In this document: positions 6,862 through 34,960 of the stretch, piece after piece | Layout of the letters: every line of letters begins with the position of its first letter | Position numbering within the stretch: the stretch's first letter is position 1 | Assembly (NCBI RefSeq): GCF_024298825.1 | Contig: NZ_CP101153.1 | Location: 4,030,001 to 4,094,000 of the forward strand | Source: Haloglomus salinum | Lineage (GTDB): Archaea > Halobacteriota > Halobacteria > Halobacteriales > Haloarculaceae | Reading direction: 5' to 3' | Length of the DNA: 64,000 nucleotides | Translations under genes and position numbers: made by a program | The notes under the pieces: generated by a model | Database searches by the model: none | Told to the model about the DNA's origin: nothing | What the model saw: the letters and a program-made list of their open reading frames with translations, nothing else

Positions 6862-7925
6862 GCCTGCGCACCATCCTCCGGAAGGAACTGCTGTGGAGCC
6901 GCCACCGGATACTGGCGCTGCTGTTCGTACTCGTGCTCCTGCCGGGGGCGTTCGCCGGGGCGTCGGTGTTCTTCCAGCACGTCCTCCCGAAGGACGCGCC
7001 CGTGGCCGTGGTGGCCGGTGAAGATGTCTCCGAGGAGGAGTACGACGTGGTCGCGGCCTCCTTCCGGCTGTTCTCGAAGCCCATCCAGTACGACTCCGAG
7101 GCCGCGGCGATGCGGGACCTCGAGCGCGAGTCGGTGTACGCCGTCGTGAGCGTCCCACCCGACCTGGGCGACCCGGACGTCAAGCGGGTGAACATGACCG
7201 TCACCATCGACGGCGACATGACGCCGTACCGGGAGCCGTCGCAGGCGCTGGTGAGCGTGGTCGCGTCGACGATGAACCGGCAACTCGACAAGCGCGTGGT
7301 GGTCCAGCGCGAGATCAGCGGCGAGGAGCGCAAGCTCTCCTCGTACCTCCTGCCGACGTTCCTGACCATCATCGTCCTCACCTTCGCGTTCGCGTACCTG
7401 CCGTACAACCTCGCCCGCGAGGAAGCCGTCCTCGACCGGTTGCGCGTCGAGACCTCGCTCGATACGGTGGTCGCGGGGAAGCTCGCCTTCTTCACCGCCC
7501 TGCTCGCGGTGCCGTTGCTGGTCTTCCACGCCGTCGGGCTGGGGATGGGCTACGACGTGAACCTGCTCGCGCCCGCCGCCGTCGCCGCGCTCGCGCTGAC
7601 CTTCCTCGCGTGCGGCGCCATCGCCACCGCCGTGACGTTCGCCTCCGGCTTCGGGACGACGGGCCGGCTGTTCAACGTCCTCCTCCTGTTCGCCTTCCTC
7701 GGGTTCTCGGGGCTGGTCTACCCGGTCGGCTTCTTCTCGCCGCTCCGACGGGATATCATCCGCCGGGTCCCCACCCACTACGCGATGCTCACGGTCCGGG
7801 GGGCCACCCTCCGTGACCTCCCCGTCGCCGAGTTCGGCCCCTGGCTCGGTGGCGTCGCGCTGTTCGCGCTCGCGATGCTCGTGCCGCTGAAGCTCTCGCT
7901 GCTCGCCTACGAGCGGGGGACCTGA
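6858..7925 (+). CDS. ABC-2 type transporter permease
   Basis: A 355-residue membrane protein with ABC-2 permease architecture: a first membrane helix at about 18-40, a large extracellular domain (about 40-165, including a VAVVAGEDV strand typical of this group), and five more helices from about residue 170 to the end. The ATG at 6858 overlaps the TGA of the preceding gene (ATGA) and there is one base between its stop codon and the ATG of the ATPase. Such permeases export lipids, drugs, peptides or sodium; the substrate here is unknown. Confidence 0.88.
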   Translation: MSLRTILRKELLWSRHRILALLFVLVLLPGAFAGASVFFQHVLPKDAPVAVVAGEDVSEEEYDVVAASFRLFSKPIQYDSEAAAMRDLERESVYAVVSVPPDLGDPDVKRVNMTVTIDGDMTPYREPSQALVSVVASTMNRQLDKRVVVQREISGEERKLSSYLLPTFLTIIVLTFAFAYLPYNLAREEAVLDRLRVETSLDTVVAGKLAFFTALLAVPLLVFHAVGLGMGYDVNLLAPAAVAALALTFLACGAIATAVTFASGFGTTGRLFNVLLLFAFLGFSGLVYPVGFFSPLRRDIIRRVPTHYAMLTVRGATLRDLPVAEFGPWLGGVALFALAMLVPLKLSLLAYERGT

Positions 7926-15446: not shown

Positions 15447-16883
15447 CTACGGCGCCTCGAACTGTGCCAGCACCGCGGCCGCGCCGTCCCCTTCCCAGAT
15501 GACCGTCACCTCGCTGCCGGAGTCGACCGCCGCGTACGTCGTGAAGCTGTCGCCGGCGGCGATGCCGTCCCCGCCAGCGGTCCAGGTGTCGACCTTGGTC
15601 TGTCCGTCGCTCGTGTACCTGACCCGGAGGTCCACGTTCACCGTGTCGCCGCCCTCGTGCTGGATGGTCACGGTCCCCTCGGCGTTCTGCTCGAAGCCGA
15701 ACGCGACCTGCGGGGCCTCGGCGGGAGTGCCGCGGGCGCTCCCGCCCCCGCTGGCCTCACCGAAGCCGAACTCGTCGGCCAGGCGCTGCGGGTCGCCCGT
15801 GATGGTGAGCACCACGGCCCGGCCGTCGGCCGTGACCTCCGTCTCCGGCGGGGTCACGTCCTCGGAGCGTGATTTGGCGGTCTCGATAGCCGAGCGGAGC
15901 GTCTCCGCCCGATCGCTCACGACGCCCTCGTCGTCGTAGTAGAGGCGGACGGTCACCTCGCTGGAGGTGGACTCCGGTGCCGTGCCGCTCCCGCCGACGC
16001 CGACGATGCCCTGCGTGAGCGCCTTCACGTCCTGCGCGAGTTCGTCATCCGGCTCCCGGGTACCACCCTGACCGTCGCCGAAGTACATCGAGCGGACCGT
16101 CTCGCCGCTTGCGAGCGTCCCCGCGATGAACGGCGCGTCACCGAGGTCGGTCAGTATCTCGCCCACGAGGTCGTCGTCCGCGAGCGGGCTGCCGCCGCCG
16201 CCCGCGGTGTCGACCTGCGTTTTGACGGCGTCCAGTGCCGTCGGCACGCCCGAGGGGGTGGCCGTCAGTTCGCCGCCGCCCCGGTAGTCGCCGCCGGAGG
16301 TCGGGGTCTCGCCGGGGTACGCCACGTCGACCGTCGCGCCGGCGAGCGCGTCGGCCGATATCGCCGCGGCGACCGTCCGGGTCTTGTCGTACTCGGCCGC
16401 GCCGCCGTAGAGCGTGAAGCCCTCGTACTCGCCACGCTCGGTGAGCTGCTCGTTCTCGGCGAGCTGCGAGCGGATCCGTTCGGCGTCGAAGTCGCCGGTC
16501 AGGTAGCCGGCGTAGACGCTCCGGTCGTCCTGATACTTCCTGGGCTCGCCGCGGTCCGTCCCGACGACGCCGCTGAGCCGGTCGGCGTCGGACGGCGCCG
16601 CTCCCTCCACGTCGCCGGCGGTGTCCTCGACACCCTTCCGGAAGGACTCGGGGAGTGCGGCCTTCTGCTGGCGGTACGCGCTCGCGTCGACCGAGACGAA
16701 CGACCGCGTCTGCACGTCGAAGACGGCAGCGGGGTCGAACAGGGCCGTGGCGTACGCTGGGGCGTCGGAGCCACTACCGCCGTCGGTCACGTCGGAGAGC
16801 TGTTCGGTACAGCCGGCGAGGCCGGTCAGGAGGGCTGCGAGTCCGCCGCTCGCGCGGAGGACATCGCGTCGTTCGGGGGCCAT
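15447..16883 (-). CDS. Tat lipoprotein with one C-terminal pilin-like beta-module
   Basis: A 478-residue surface lipoprotein: twin-arginine ERRDVLRA, lipobox LAGC at about 22-25, then a long acidic domain of unknown function starting with a conserved YATALFDPAAVFDVQTRSF block. The last 90 residues form a beta-domain (PQVAFGFEQNAEGTVTIQHE, then GGDTV...IAAGDSFTT...VTVIWEG) that resembles the globular part of haloarchaeal type IV pilins. It is a paralogue of the next gene upstream on the same strand: the same N-terminal start pattern, a related ADWLFD/ATALFD block and the same C-terminal module. ATG 16883 puts the signal at the N-terminus. Confidence 0.82.
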   Translation of the reverse strand: MAPERRDVLRASGGLAALLTGLAGCTEQLSDVTDGGSGSDAPAYATALFDPAAVFDVQTRSFVSVDASAYRQQKAALPESFRKGVEDTAGDVEGAAPSDADRLSGVVGTDRGEPRKYQDDRSVYAGYLTGDFDAERIRSQLAENEQLTERGEYEGFTLYGGAAEYDKTRTVAAAISADALAGATVDVAYPGETPTSGGDYRGGGELTATPSGVPTALDAVKTQVDTAGGGGSPLADDDLVGEILTDLGDAPFIAGTLASGETVRSMYFGDGQGGTREPDDELAQDVKALTQGIVGVGGSGTAPESTSSEVTVRLYYDDEGVVSDRAETLRSAIETAKSRSEDVTPPETEVTADGRAVVLTITGDPQRLADEFGFGEASGGGSARGTPAEAPQVAFGFEQNAEGTVTIQHEGGDTVNVDLRVRYTSDGQTKVDTWTAGGDGIAAGDSFTTYAAVDSGSEVTVIWEGDGAAAVLAQFEAP

Positions 16884-31346: not shown

Positions 31347-31352
31347 TTTATA
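31347..31352 (+). promoter_or_regulatory. TATA box of the surface-fibre cluster
   Basis: TTTATA within CGGGGATTTATACAG is the only good archaeal TATA-like hexamer before the four-gene cluster. It would start transcription about 31376, giving a leader of roughly 95 bases before the ATG at 31472. Confidence 0.55.
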
Positions 31353-31471: not shown

Positions 31472-31636
31472 ATGACCCGGAACCACGAACCGAAGTTCGA
31501 CACGGACGAACCGCACACGACCGACGACCAGTACGCGAGCTTCTCGACCGAGGCGGGGCTCGTCATGTACGACCCCGACGACCCGGACGCGTGGCTCGAG
31601 GCCGACACCACCATCGACCCCGCGGAGGTGGCGTAG
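31472..31636 (+). CDS. Small acidic protein, DUF7331-like
   Basis: A 54-residue protein (starts MTRNHEPKFDTDEPHTTDDQ, contains YASFSTEAGLVMYDPDDPDAWL) matching a small haloarchaeal family remembered as DUF7331, defined by a Y.SF...GLV.YD...AW...D pattern. It is soluble and of unknown function. Its stop TAG is directly followed by the ATG of the next gene, so it is first in the cluster. In this setting it may be a small regulator or a chaperone. Confidence 0.7.
   Translation: MTRNHEPKFDTDEPHTTDDQYASFSTEAGLVMYDPDDPDAWLEADTTIDPAEVA
31624..31630 (+). promoter_or_regulatory. Shine-Dalgarno site for the lipoprotein at 31637
   Basis: GGAGGTG, complementary to the archaeal 16S rRNA 3' end, 6 bases before ATG 31637. 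It lies inside the upstream small gene and supports coupled translation. Confidence 0.65.
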
Positions 31637-32821
31637 ATGTCTCGAGACGACGCCACCACGGGCGGCACGTCGCGGCGGAGCGTGCTCAAGACGCTGGGCG
31701 CGGCCGGCGCGGCCGGCGCCGTCGGCCTGGCCGGCTGCAGCGAGGTCGCGGCACGGGAGTACGAGGCGGCCCCGGTCGCGCTGGACGCCGCCGCCGAGGA
31801 GCGGGGCTTCCACGCCGTCGACGTCGGCAGCTGGGAGGAGACTCGCAGCGCCGAGGCGCTCGGCATGGAGGTCGACGCGACGCTGACGAACCAATACGCC
31901 GCCTACGGGGGCCAGGATGCCCACCTGGGGCTGGTCGCGATGCCCGCGGTCGAGGAGGGCGGGGAGGCCCTGAACCCGCTCGCTGAGCGACCGCTCCCCG
32001 ACCTGGTCGACTCCGCTGCCGCCCGGTCGCTGCTCCGCCGGCTCAACATCGAGCCCGAGGGGGAGCTGGCATGGCGGCGCGGCCCGGAGCGGCTCGGAGT
32101 CCGTGAGACCGCCTTCCTCGGCCGGGAGGCCCGTGCGATGGCGTTCACCGGAACCACCGGCGGCGGCGAGGAGGTCCTGCTCCACGTCGCTCGCATCCGC
32201 CACGAGGGCGACGCCGTCTTCGGCGTCCGGGTCGATACCCGGCCCCTCGAACGCGACCAGGAGCGCGCCACGCCGACGGATGGCGGCAGCGAGGACGAAG
32301 ACGGCTCCATGGACTCGGGCTCCGGCGGCGGCTGGTCGCCCCCCGAGGCCTGGGAGCGCTTCGATATCGGTCTCGGACACGGCGAGCGCATCGACCCCTG
32401 CGCCGGTACGCCCGGTCGCTGGGTCGAGATCACCAAGCCCGAGGACCGTGGGCTCGTCACGCTGGACGGCTCGACGAGCGGCGGCTACCAGTTCCCAATC
32501 GAGTACGACGGCGGGAAGCCGTACGCCGAGGTGACCGCCGAGGCCGACACGGGGAAGGTCCTCGGGGTCTGCGGCGGGTGGCCGGACGACTTCGACCACT
32601 ACGAGTGGAGTTACCGTCGCATCAGCCAGCACAGGGGGCACTGCGGGCCGACGCTGAACAGGTGGATCTCCGCTGGCACGGGGACCTCGGTGACCATGCC
32701 GCTGGAGGACTGCGCGTGCGGGTTCACGATCTACGAGATCCGCGTCGAGGCGTACGACTCGCAGGGCAACGTCGCCTCCAGCGACACCATCCGCTACAAC
32801 GTCAACGTGTGGGGGTGCTGA
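31637..32821 (+). CDS. Tat lipoprotein, DUF6517-like domain plus Cys-rich Ig/PKD-like domain
   Basis: A 394-residue lipoprotein. TSRRSVLKTLG is the twin-arginine motif and GLAGC the lipobox. Residues 35-210 look like the haloarchaeal DUF6517 family (A.L...A...RGF...DVGSWE, LTNQYAAY, LGLVAMPAVE). After a Gly/Ser/Asp linker (about 215-235) comes a domain with PKD or Ig-like strands (YEIRVEAYDSQGNVASS) and an unusual set of seven cysteines: DPCAG, GVCGG, GHCGP, DCAC and the C-terminal WGC, apart from the lipid-anchored one. Disulfides are likely if they are exposed outside. It is second in the fibre cluster, with a Shine-Dalgarno 6 bases upstream. Confidence 0.8.
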   Translation: MSRDDATTGGTSRRSVLKTLGAAGAAGAVGLAGCSEVAAREYEAAPVALDAAAEERGFHAVDVGSWEETRSAEALGMEVDATLTNQYAAYGGQDAHLGLVAMPAVEEGGEALNPLAERPLPDLVDSAAARSLLRRLNIEPEGELAWRRGPERLGVRETAFLGREARAMAFTGTTGGGEEVLLHVARIRHEGDAVFGVRVDTRPLERDQERATPTDGGSEDEDGSMDSGSGGGWSPPEAWERFDIGLGHGERIDPCAGTPGRWVEITKPEDRGLVTLDGSTSGGYQFPIEYDGGKPYAEVTAEADTGKVLGVCGGWPDDFDHYEWSYRRISQHRGHCGPTLNRWISAGTGTSVTMPLEDCACGFTIYEIRVEAYDSQGNVASSDTIRYNVNVWGC

Positions 32822-32849
32822 GATGACGGACTCGCGACCTCCCCGGCAC

Positions 32850-32857
32850 GGAGGTGA
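32850..32857 (+). promoter_or_regulatory. Shine-Dalgarno site deciding the GTG start at 32864
   Basis: GGAGGTGA, a full match to the 16S rRNA 3' end, 6 bases before GTG 32864. It decides for this GTG over the ATG at 32823, which opens only a 14-codon frame. Confidence 0.75.
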
Positions 32858-32863
32858 CCAGGC

Positions 32864-33322
32864 GTGACCGACGAGGCCGACACCACGGTCTCCGGCGAGA
32901 CCTCCGACAGCCGGGTCGCGCTGAGCCGGCGGCAACTGCTGGCCGGGACCGCCGCGGGCGCCGTCGTGCTGGCCGGCTGCTACACCGCCGTCACCGAGCT
33001 GGACGACGGGGCCGGTGAGTCCGGCGGAGGCGGCACGCCGACCCCGACGTTCGGCTACGGCGGGTCGCCGGACGGCGGGGACGCCTCCTCGACCGGGACC
33101 CCGGACCAGCGTGGCGAGTGGACCCCCGGGGCCACCGAGACGGGGACCCGCCCCGACATCGACTGGCCCACGGACACCCCGACGGCGACAGCGACACCCA
33201 GTCCCACGCCGTCACCGACCCCCAGTCCGACCCCGACGGCGACGCCCACGTCGCCCCCGATTCAGGACGACTTCGGCGAGCAACGCTACGGCGAGTACGG
33301 CTACGGGGGCGTCGGCCCGTAA
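32864..33322 (+). CDS. Tat lipoprotein with Pro/Thr stalk, fibre-cluster member
   Basis: A 152-residue protein with twin-arginine SRRQLLAGT, lipobox LAGC (about residue 36) and then almost no globular domain. Residues 45-105 are Gly/Ser/Thr/Asp-rich, 106-132 are a PTPSPTPSPTP-type stalk, and the tail ends in a Tyr/Gly-rich EQRYGEYGYGGVGP. It looks like a lipid-anchored spacer or adaptor presenting a short C-terminal peptide, just before the fibre gene (24 bp apart). The start codon is GTG, chosen for its Shine-Dalgarno. Confidence 0.78.
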   Translation: MTDEADTTVSGETSDSRVALSRRQLLAGTAAGAVVLAGCYTAVTELDDGAGESGGGGTPTPTFGYGGSPDGGDASSTGTPDQRGEWTPGATETGTRPDIDWPTDTPTATATPSPTPSPTPSPTPTATPTSPPIQDDFGEQRYGEYGYGGVGP

Positions 33323-33334
33323 TCCGGCGCACAC

Positions 33335-33341
33335 GAGGTGA
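33335..33341 (+). promoter_or_regulatory. Shine-Dalgarno site deciding the ATG at 33347
   Basis: GAGGTGA, 5 bases before ATG 33347. It overlaps the in-frame GTG at 33338, arguing against that earlier start. Confidence 0.7.
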
Positions 33342-33346
33342 ACACA

Positions 33347-34960
33347 ATGAGCAAGACTCCGAACCACGGCTACAACGTTCCGCAGAAGGGCGCGAAGAAC
33401 TGGCACAAACCGCTGAACGACAACTTCCGGCAGTACGACATCGACATCGAGGTCCGCGACGCCGCGTCCAACCGCGGGAACTACACGCCCAAGCAGGGCG
33501 CGAAGTTCCTCGCGACCGACCTCGGCGTGGTCTACCTGGGCGATGGGTCGAACTGGCTCCCGATGCTGGCGCTGTCGCGGCTCCGGACGCCTGCGACGAC
33601 GGGCGCCGCGGCTAACCTGATCGCCGGCCACCCGGGCAACAGCGTCGCGAGCGGCATCAGCGGCGCGACGGTCGCCGGCGGTGGCTTCGACGACGGGAAC
33701 ACGGTCGAGCCCAACGAGGTGACGGCCCCCTTCGGGACCGTTGGCGGTGGTCGCGGGAACGCCGCCGGCGCCGAGAACGCCACGGTCGCGGGCGGCGAGG
33801 CCAACTCAGCCAGCGGCCAGGACGCGAGCGTCGGGGGCGGCACCTCGAACGTCGCCTCCGGGCAGCACGCCACGGTCGGCGGCGGCGACCTCAACCGGGC
33901 CACCGGCCAGGATGCCATCGTCGCGGGTGGGATGCGCAACGAGGCCACCAACCAGTGGTCGACCGTCGGCGGCGGGAACAACAACGTCGCGAGCGCCGGC
34001 AACTCGACCATCGCCGGCGGCTCGAAGAACACCGCCGAGTTCGACGCGGCGACCGTCGCGGGCGGCTACGACAACACCGCGAAGTACACCGCCACCGTTG
34101 GTGGCGGGGCCGAGAACAGCGCCGGCGGCGACCACTCGACCGTCGGCGGCGGGGAGAAGAACACCGCCAGCGCGGAGTACACGACCGTCGGCGGCGGCGG
34201 ACGGAACGAGGCCACCGACAAGATGGCCACCGTCGCCGGGGGCGTCGGCAACACCGCGGACAGCACCGGGACCGTCGGCGGCGGCCTCGGGAACTCGGCG
34301 GGCTACGTCGCCACCGTCCCAGGGGGGCGGAACAACGCGGCCAACGGGAGCTTCTCGTTCGCCGCTGGCCGGCAGGCGACCGCCGACGGCGACGGGAGCT
34401 TCGCCTGGGGCGATAGCACCCAGCGGAGCGTCACGGCCTCGCGGGCGGACCAGTTCCTGGTCCAGGCCGGCGGCGGTGTGACCGTCTTCTCCAGCAGTGA
34501 TGCCTCCACGGGTGCGGAACTCCCCCCCGGCGGCGGCTCCTGGTCCTCGCTGAGCGCGAGCTCCGCGAAGACGAACATGCAGCCGGTCGACCCCGGCGCG
34601 GTCCTGGACCGGGTCGCGGACCTGGATGTCAGTCGGTGGGAGTACGACAGCCAGGAGGACGCCACCCACATGGGCCCGATGGCCGAGGACTTCCACGACG
34701 CGTTCGGGCTCGGTGCCGACCGCGACCGCATCGCCACCGTCGACGCCGACGGCGTCGCGCTGGCAGCCATCAAGGGCCTCGACCAGCGGGTGGACGACTG
34801 CGAGGCGCGTGTCGCGGACCTCGAACGCGAGGTCGAGAGACGCGACGAGCGCATCGCGGACCTGGAGGCCACGGTCGCGGAACAGTCGTCGGCACTCTCG
34901 GACCTCCGCGACGAGGTCGCCGACCTCCGCGAGACGGTCGGCGAAACGGACGCGGCGTGA
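33347..34960 (+). CDS. Trimeric fibre-like protein: YadA-head-type repeats, S74-like chaperone, coiled coil
   Basis: A 537-residue protein without signal peptide. Residues 1-80 are a hydrophilic head domain (NYTPKQGAKF, LGDGSNWLP). Residues 108-355 hold about 14 repeats of 14-15 residues of the form TVGGGxxNxAxGxxA, the left-handed beta-roll motif of YadA-type heads and phage fibres, closed by FAAGRQATADGDGSFAWGDS. Residues 400-480 resemble the peptidase S74 (endosialidase) intramolecular chaperone: SSAKTN for the SDxxxKxN core, MGPMAEDFHDAFG, and VDADGVALAAIKGL. Residues 480-532 are a heptad coiled coil (VADLEREVERRDERIADLEA). Trimerisation and self-cleavage before the Ser are known for the family; here they are inferred. 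It is last in the cluster after two lipoproteins. No other phage genes lie nearby. Confidence 0.85.
   Translation: MSKTPNHGYNVPQKGAKNWHKPLNDNFRQYDIDIEVRDAASNRGNYTPKQGAKFLATDLGVVYLGDGSNWLPMLALSRLRTPATTGAAANLIAGHPGNSVASGISGATVAGGGFDDGNTVEPNEVTAPFGTVGGGRGNAAGAENATVAGGEANSASGQDASVGGGTSNVASGQHATVGGGDLNRATGQDAIVAGGMRNEATNQWSTVGGGNNNVASAGNSTIAGGSKNTAEFDAATVAGGYDNTAKYTATVGGGAENSAGGDHSTVGGGEKNTASAEYTTVGGGGRNEATDKMATVAGGVGNTADSTGTVGGGLGNSAGYVATVPGGRNNAANGSFSFAAGRQATADGDGSFAWGDSTQRSVTASRADQFLVQAGGGVTVFSSSDASTGAELPPGGGSWSSLSASSAKTNMQPVDPGAVLDRVADLDVSRWEYDSQEDATHMGPMAEDFHDAFGLGADRDRIATVDADGVALAAIKGLDQRVDDCEARVADLEREVERRDERIADLEATVAEQSSALSDLRDEVADLRETVGETDAA

Follow-up and report, generated by a model that had tools for sequence, protein, structure and literature searches.

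How can a fibre protein of surface type leave a haloarchaeal cell when it carries no signal peptide of its own? The question is raised by P0004, a 537-residue protein encoded on the + strand at 33347-34960 of the window, by which we mean the whole 64,000-nucleotide (nt) stretch of Haloglomus salinum analysed here (contig NZ_CP101153.1, positions 4,030,001 to 4,094,000), held in a single-contig genome of 4.19 Mb. The original prediction described a four-gene surface-fibre cluster at this place and called the export route of the fibre unknown; that route can now be put as a specific hypothesis, namely that P0004 and the lipoprotein encoded just upstream, P0003, are probably a carrier–cargo pair, the sequences suggesting that the fibre is exported and anchored through its partner by hitchhiking on the twin-arginine translocation (Tat) pathway.

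Results

The N-terminus of P0004 (MSKTPNHGYNVPQKGAKNWH) holds no signal peptide, Sec signals included, as had been noted before. In its place stands a small module (residues 1-75; 33347-33571, + strand) whose aligned relatives share the consensus NHxYNxPxxGxxxWHxPLNxNF...RD...Y.P..GAKFLATDxGxVYxGDGSxW and which was found in 95 of the 391 Halobacteria genomes sampled, representing 41 of 86 genera, with four more copies in the genome of P0004 itself. Some 80 of the regions carrying it were fetched and read, mostly as stretches of 19 kb each. The module is nearly always N-terminal (it is C-terminal in a beta-helix protein in two cases), no signal peptide was seen on any module protein inspected, and among 84 proteins the C-terminal parts that follow it belong to at least 28 families, between which no similarity was detected, the recognisable cargos being polysaccharide lyase 14, S74, beta-helix and CBM6 domains. 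Neither the module nor the partner motifs described below matched a dedicated family in Pfam or NCBIfam, matches to the module outside Halobacteria were weak and partial, and a search of the PDB with the module profile gave no match. Its fold, a helix with beta-hairpins, is confidently predicted, and the C-terminal half weakly resembles (Foldseek E 0.39, VIA Z 5.1) the N-domain of Mtd, a phage receptor-binding trimer, as well as the N-domains of phage hyaluronidases and the trimerisation domains of collagen XV/XVIII. Pfam Mtd_N was matched in six of 78 module proteins (best 1.6e-4) and not in P0004, which, unlike Mtd and the phage hyaluronidases, is not part of a phage and gives no significant sequence match to them. 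A trimerising role of the module is plausible. The two proteins with a C-terminal module are signal-less right-handed beta-helix proteins (L117:9245-10570 and L125:7892-9598), and the second gene is adjoined by one for a 77-residue Tat protein with a YG-rich end (7472-7705).

The gene directly upstream of P0004 encodes P0003, a Tat lipoprotein of 152 residues with a Pro/Thr stalk and a GTG start (32864-33322, + strand), which we propose as carrier and anchor. The stretch from its twin-arginine motif to the lipobox Cys (RRQLLAGTAAGAVVLAGC; 32927-32980, + strand) gave only weak Tat matches, slightly under the cut-offs of Pfam and NCBIfam, and the sequence has the RR motif, hydrophobic stretch and lipobox Cys of a haloarchaeal Tat lipoprotein (SRRQLLAGTAAGAVVLAGC). 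Two further elements recur among its counterparts. The first, FGYGG in P0003 (33050-33064, + strand), belongs to a GYGG motif located approximately 10-30 residues past the lipid Cys, which was present in all 28 Tat-lipobox open reading frames (ORFs) directly upstream of a module gene and in only 2 of 65 elsewhere. The second is a C-terminal YG motif, typically DDYGEQGYGxYGYGG and represented in P0003 by DDFGEQRYGEYGYGGVGP (33266-33319, + strand). When upstream neighbours were picked by this C-terminal motif alone, disregarding any signal peptide, a YG-ended ORF was found directly upstream of 48 of the 95 module genes, P0004 included, at spacings from a 4-nt overlap to 160 nt, against 5 of 996 other acidic ORFs of the same loci. 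Every one of these 48 partners had a Tat-type score and 39 had a lipobox by script; for the over-extended ORFs L048 and L069 the lipobox result of the script is false, and by eye a true Tat lipobox is present.

The same association was recovered at the DNA level, where the motif GYGxxGYGG occurs at 77 sites in the 391 genomes, 45 of them immediately upstream of a module gene, and where the module is present in 52 of 62 genomes with the motif versus 43 of 329 others (Fisher p 2.7e-28, a value that overstates independence because related genomes are counted). The adjacency of partner and module does not depend on that value, and the strict DNA motif misses some partners, such as P0003 itself with RYGEYGYGG. 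What lies between the signal and the C-terminal motif differs among the partners: LamG, CBM6/35 or other domains, or a Thr/Pro stalk only, as in P0003. Several module loci lie within glycosyltransferase/sulfatase clusters, whereas the locus in the window does not. In genome G306, near-identical copies of partner and fibre genes are found (L050:9276-11087 and L051:9442-11249), the second fibre frame being split into two ORFs.

A comparison of proteins sharing the S74 domain of P0004 indicates how module and signal relate. S74 is present in 22 of the 391 genomes, and the full-length proteins of these genomes, together with those at L010 and L011 and leaving aside fragments and the unresolved L158, comprise six with the module and no signal, 11 with a Tat signal of their own but without the module, none with both and six with neither (one-sided Fisher p 0.009 for the exclusivity, again with related genomes counted and independence overstated). 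Two additional module-less records have their own signal, L012 and L014, the latter with a Tat signal followed by YadA repeats and S74. Because module and Tat signal never stand together on S74 proteins, the module appears to be a stand-in for the signal; no YG partner was seen in the stretches read around Tat-bearing S74 genes, and the partner tracks the module rather than S74. Proteins with YadA repeats and S74 that lack both the module and a recognisable signal are encoded at L159, L161, L165, L166, L010 and L011, two of them opening with a carboxypeptidase-regulatory-like stretch. In two different haloarchaea, a gene of the T4 gp19 tail-tube type (PF06841) lies directly upstream of an S74 gene, at L056:9278-9724 on a Natronosalvus plasmid (E 6.5e-29) and at L012:7472-7918 (E 9.5e-22); one of the two S74 proteins has the module and the other a Tat signal, and no further tail gene was noted close by.

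Behind its module, P0004 has the architecture that had been read from the sequence before, and each part of it was supported by the present analysis. A YadA/UspA1-type beta-roll (residues 106-345; 33662-34381, + strand) contains 14 repeats of the form [TSI][VI][GAP]GGxxNxA spaced by 14-15 residues, far above chance, given that no more than one was obtained in any of 2000 shuffled versions; the region matches UspA1 (3pr7, E 2.3e-23) and is modelled with a predicted local distance difference test score (pLDDT) of about 85-94 across residues 130-290. The S74 chaperone region follows (residues 403-478; 34553-34780, + strand), with a Peptidase_S74 match at residues 407-453 (E 5.8e-7; 30.1 bits against a Pfam cut-off of 22) and a Ser-x4-Lys dyad formed by Ser403 (34553-34555, + strand) and Lys408 (34568-34570, + strand), invariant among seven aligned haloarchaeal homologues and spaced exactly as in endoNF (S911/K916) and MyRF (S587/K592) (PMC8326128). 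The chain closes with a C-terminal coiled coil (residues 479-534; 34781-34948, + strand) of heptad-like sequence, modelled as part of a long helix at residues 467-534. The monomer model was built from seven sequences and places neither the module nor the S74 region well, and Foldseek with the complete model found no meaningful match. Matches to PHROGs were confined to the coiled coil and were discarded as uninformative. The P0004 of Haloglomus halophilum ZY41 is identical.

The other two genes of the locus complete a run of four on the + strand with gaps of 0-42 nt, and both this layout and the kinds of gene first noted (a small-protein gene, a Cys-rich Tat lipoprotein, a Tat lipoprotein with a Pro/Thr stalk and the repeat protein) were verified. 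P0001, of 54 residues (31472-31636, + strand), is a DUF7331 protein (Pfam PF24018, E 9.1e-10), with a TTTATA box at 31347-31352, some 120 nt upstream, and a TAG stop immediately 5' of the ATG of P0002. The 394-residue P0002 (31637-32821, + strand) starts with an RR...lipobox signal (SRRSVLKTLGAAGAAGAVGLAGC) and combines a DUF6517 half (Pfam PF20127, E 4.4e-11) with a Cys-rich C-terminal half. Gaps of 42 nt and 24 nt separate P0002 from P0003 and P0003 from P0004, and a ribosome site of GGAGGTG/GAGGTGA type lies close 5' of each of P0002, P0003 and P0004. Relatives of P0002 occur in 78 of the 391 genomes and none adjoins a module gene, even the nearest, on two related plasmids or contigs, being separated from one by over 20 kb; all of these relatives match the DUF6517 half only, the Cys-rich half (residues 235-394) having no relative in the 391 genomes. 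No relative of P0001 was found at the other module loci read, and two other partner–module pairs in the same genome stand without relatives of either gene. Elsewhere in the window, the ORFs starting at 15447 and 17001 encode neighbouring Tat lipoproteins with similar starts (RRDVLRASGGLAALLTGLAGC and RRDVLRAGGVAALLSGGLAGC), perhaps from a tandem duplication.

Discussion

Since relatives of P0001 and P0002 do not stand beside the module elsewhere, the conserved unit is the two genes P0003 and P0004, and the four-gene cluster of the original prediction is not borne out as a unit. The accompanying proposal that the lipoproteins anchor or present the fibre is supported for P0003, whose GYGG/YG signature recurs directly upstream of signal-less relatives and whose type accompanies the module in other haloarchaea, but not for the Cys-rich P0002, which does not accompany the module at any other locus that was read. 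P0001 is probably co-transcribed, yet outside the conserved pair. A single surface complex of all four products could be argued from their shared strand and minimal gaps; with the first two genes missing from the other module loci and from the two further pairs of the same genome, it is very improbable.

We infer the following course of events for the remaining pair. Folding of P0004, most likely into a homotrimer, would take place in the cytoplasm, with the S74 region serving as folding chaperone and then probably cutting the chain at Ser403, which would free a C-terminal piece containing the coiled coil. The module would bind the GYGG/YG segments of P0003, the complex would exit on the Tat signal of the lipoprotein, and the lipid anchor and Pro/Thr stalk would keep on the surface a fibre that probably acts as an adhesin. 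Co-translocation of signal-less subunits by Tat is established in Escherichia coli (HybOC and PaoABC; PMC4273604) and most haloarchaeal lipoproteins are Tat substrates (PMC2945643); the arrangement characteristic of a hitchhiker pair, a signal-less cargo co-encoded with a Tat-signal partner, is found here and recurs in 48 of the 95 module loci. It is possible, though we propose it more tentatively than the pair itself, that a general platform of haloarchaea operates in this way, in which, by way of the small and probably trimerising N-terminal module, dozens of folded proteins unrelated to each other are carried through Tat by YG-motif partners, a short peptide motif being what links them to an export signal supplied in trans.

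Several observations weigh against these proposals. No YG partner lies directly upstream of 47 of the 95 module genes, some of which have a YG-motif Tat protein farther away, and the six full-length S74 proteins with neither module nor signal mean that other arrangements exist. The lipobox Cys is missing in some partners, so anchoring is not universal, which suggests that some complexes are secreted instead. The counts include related genomes, and for many genes the start was assigned by script. AlphaFold2, given mature P0003 and the module as a single chain (with a lone TAA read as Q, a modelling device that implies no biological claim), placed no YG motif on the module (pLDDT about 43-58 there), an outcome of modelling that neither supports nor refutes binding.

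Part of this evidence would also suit a lipoprotein that merely captures, from outside, a cargo that has left by another route. The S74 proteins with neither module nor signal mean that such a route may exist, and the 47 module genes without an adjacent partner point the same way; but no S74 protein was seen to combine the module with a Tat signal of its own, and partners without a lipobox Cys could anchor nothing, so that we regard docking without co-export as unlikely. That P0004 stays inside the cell, the link between module and partner being one of operon structure or regulation, agrees with the lack of a signal peptide on every module protein inspected, and is nonetheless improbable in view of the extracellular type of the cargo domains (polysaccharide lyase 14, CBM6, beta-helix) and of the Tat signals on module-less relatives.

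A phage or contractile-injection role is likewise unlikely here. The S74 domain, the weakly Mtd-like fold of the module and the gp19-type tube gene 5' of S74 genes at two other loci could recall the tail fibre of a prophage or of an injection system, or a recent remnant of one; however, Phage_sheath_1 is absent from the genome in a search whose controls were positive, the module was unmatched in phage records, and a scan of viral contigs with one module protein returned no relative, making this origin of P0004 exceedingly improbable. The proposed hitchhiking of P0004 on P0003 is compared below with systems already described.

In E. coli, a signal-less subunit is likewise co-encoded with a Tat-signal subunit, although those hitchhikers are fixed pairs of redox enzymes, while here one small module stands on many unrelated cargos, the partner is marked by a short YG motif, and the complex is a proposed one. 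The beta-roll repeats and C-terminal coiled coil of P0004 are those of the YadA/UspA1 trimeric autotransporter adhesins (type Vc), which differ from it in lacking the S74 region and N-terminal module; type Vc secretion is unfit for P0004 because it has no Sec signal and no membrane anchor, a Pfam scan having found no membrane-anchor family in a chain that ends in the coiled coil. Comparable too are the MAT fibres of Bdellovibrio (PMC10769870), cellular phage-like modular fibres with diverse ends, a subset of which has S74 (SDxxxK); they possess their own signal peptide and a beta-rich N-domain of approximately 130 residues, whereas P0004 has no signal peptide and no known match to that domain. 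Known relatives exist for every single ingredient (hitchhiking, S74, the YadA repeats and phage-like fibres of cellular origin), while no description of the module, of the YG motif, of their pairing or of archaeal YadA-type proteins was found in the open-access papers searched.

If the proposal is true, haloarchaea would export and anchor folded, multimeric proteins without signals by modular, peptide-guided means, and Tat hitchhiking, so far a matter of a few redox enzymes, would come to include a broad class of surface proteins. The proposed rule, binding of the YG motif by the module, is a simple one that could be tested in Haloferax volcanii and might find use as a display tag. Proteins now predicted as cytoplasmic or annotated as 'tail fiber domain-containing' would move to the cell surface in about one quarter of the sampled haloarchaeal genomes.

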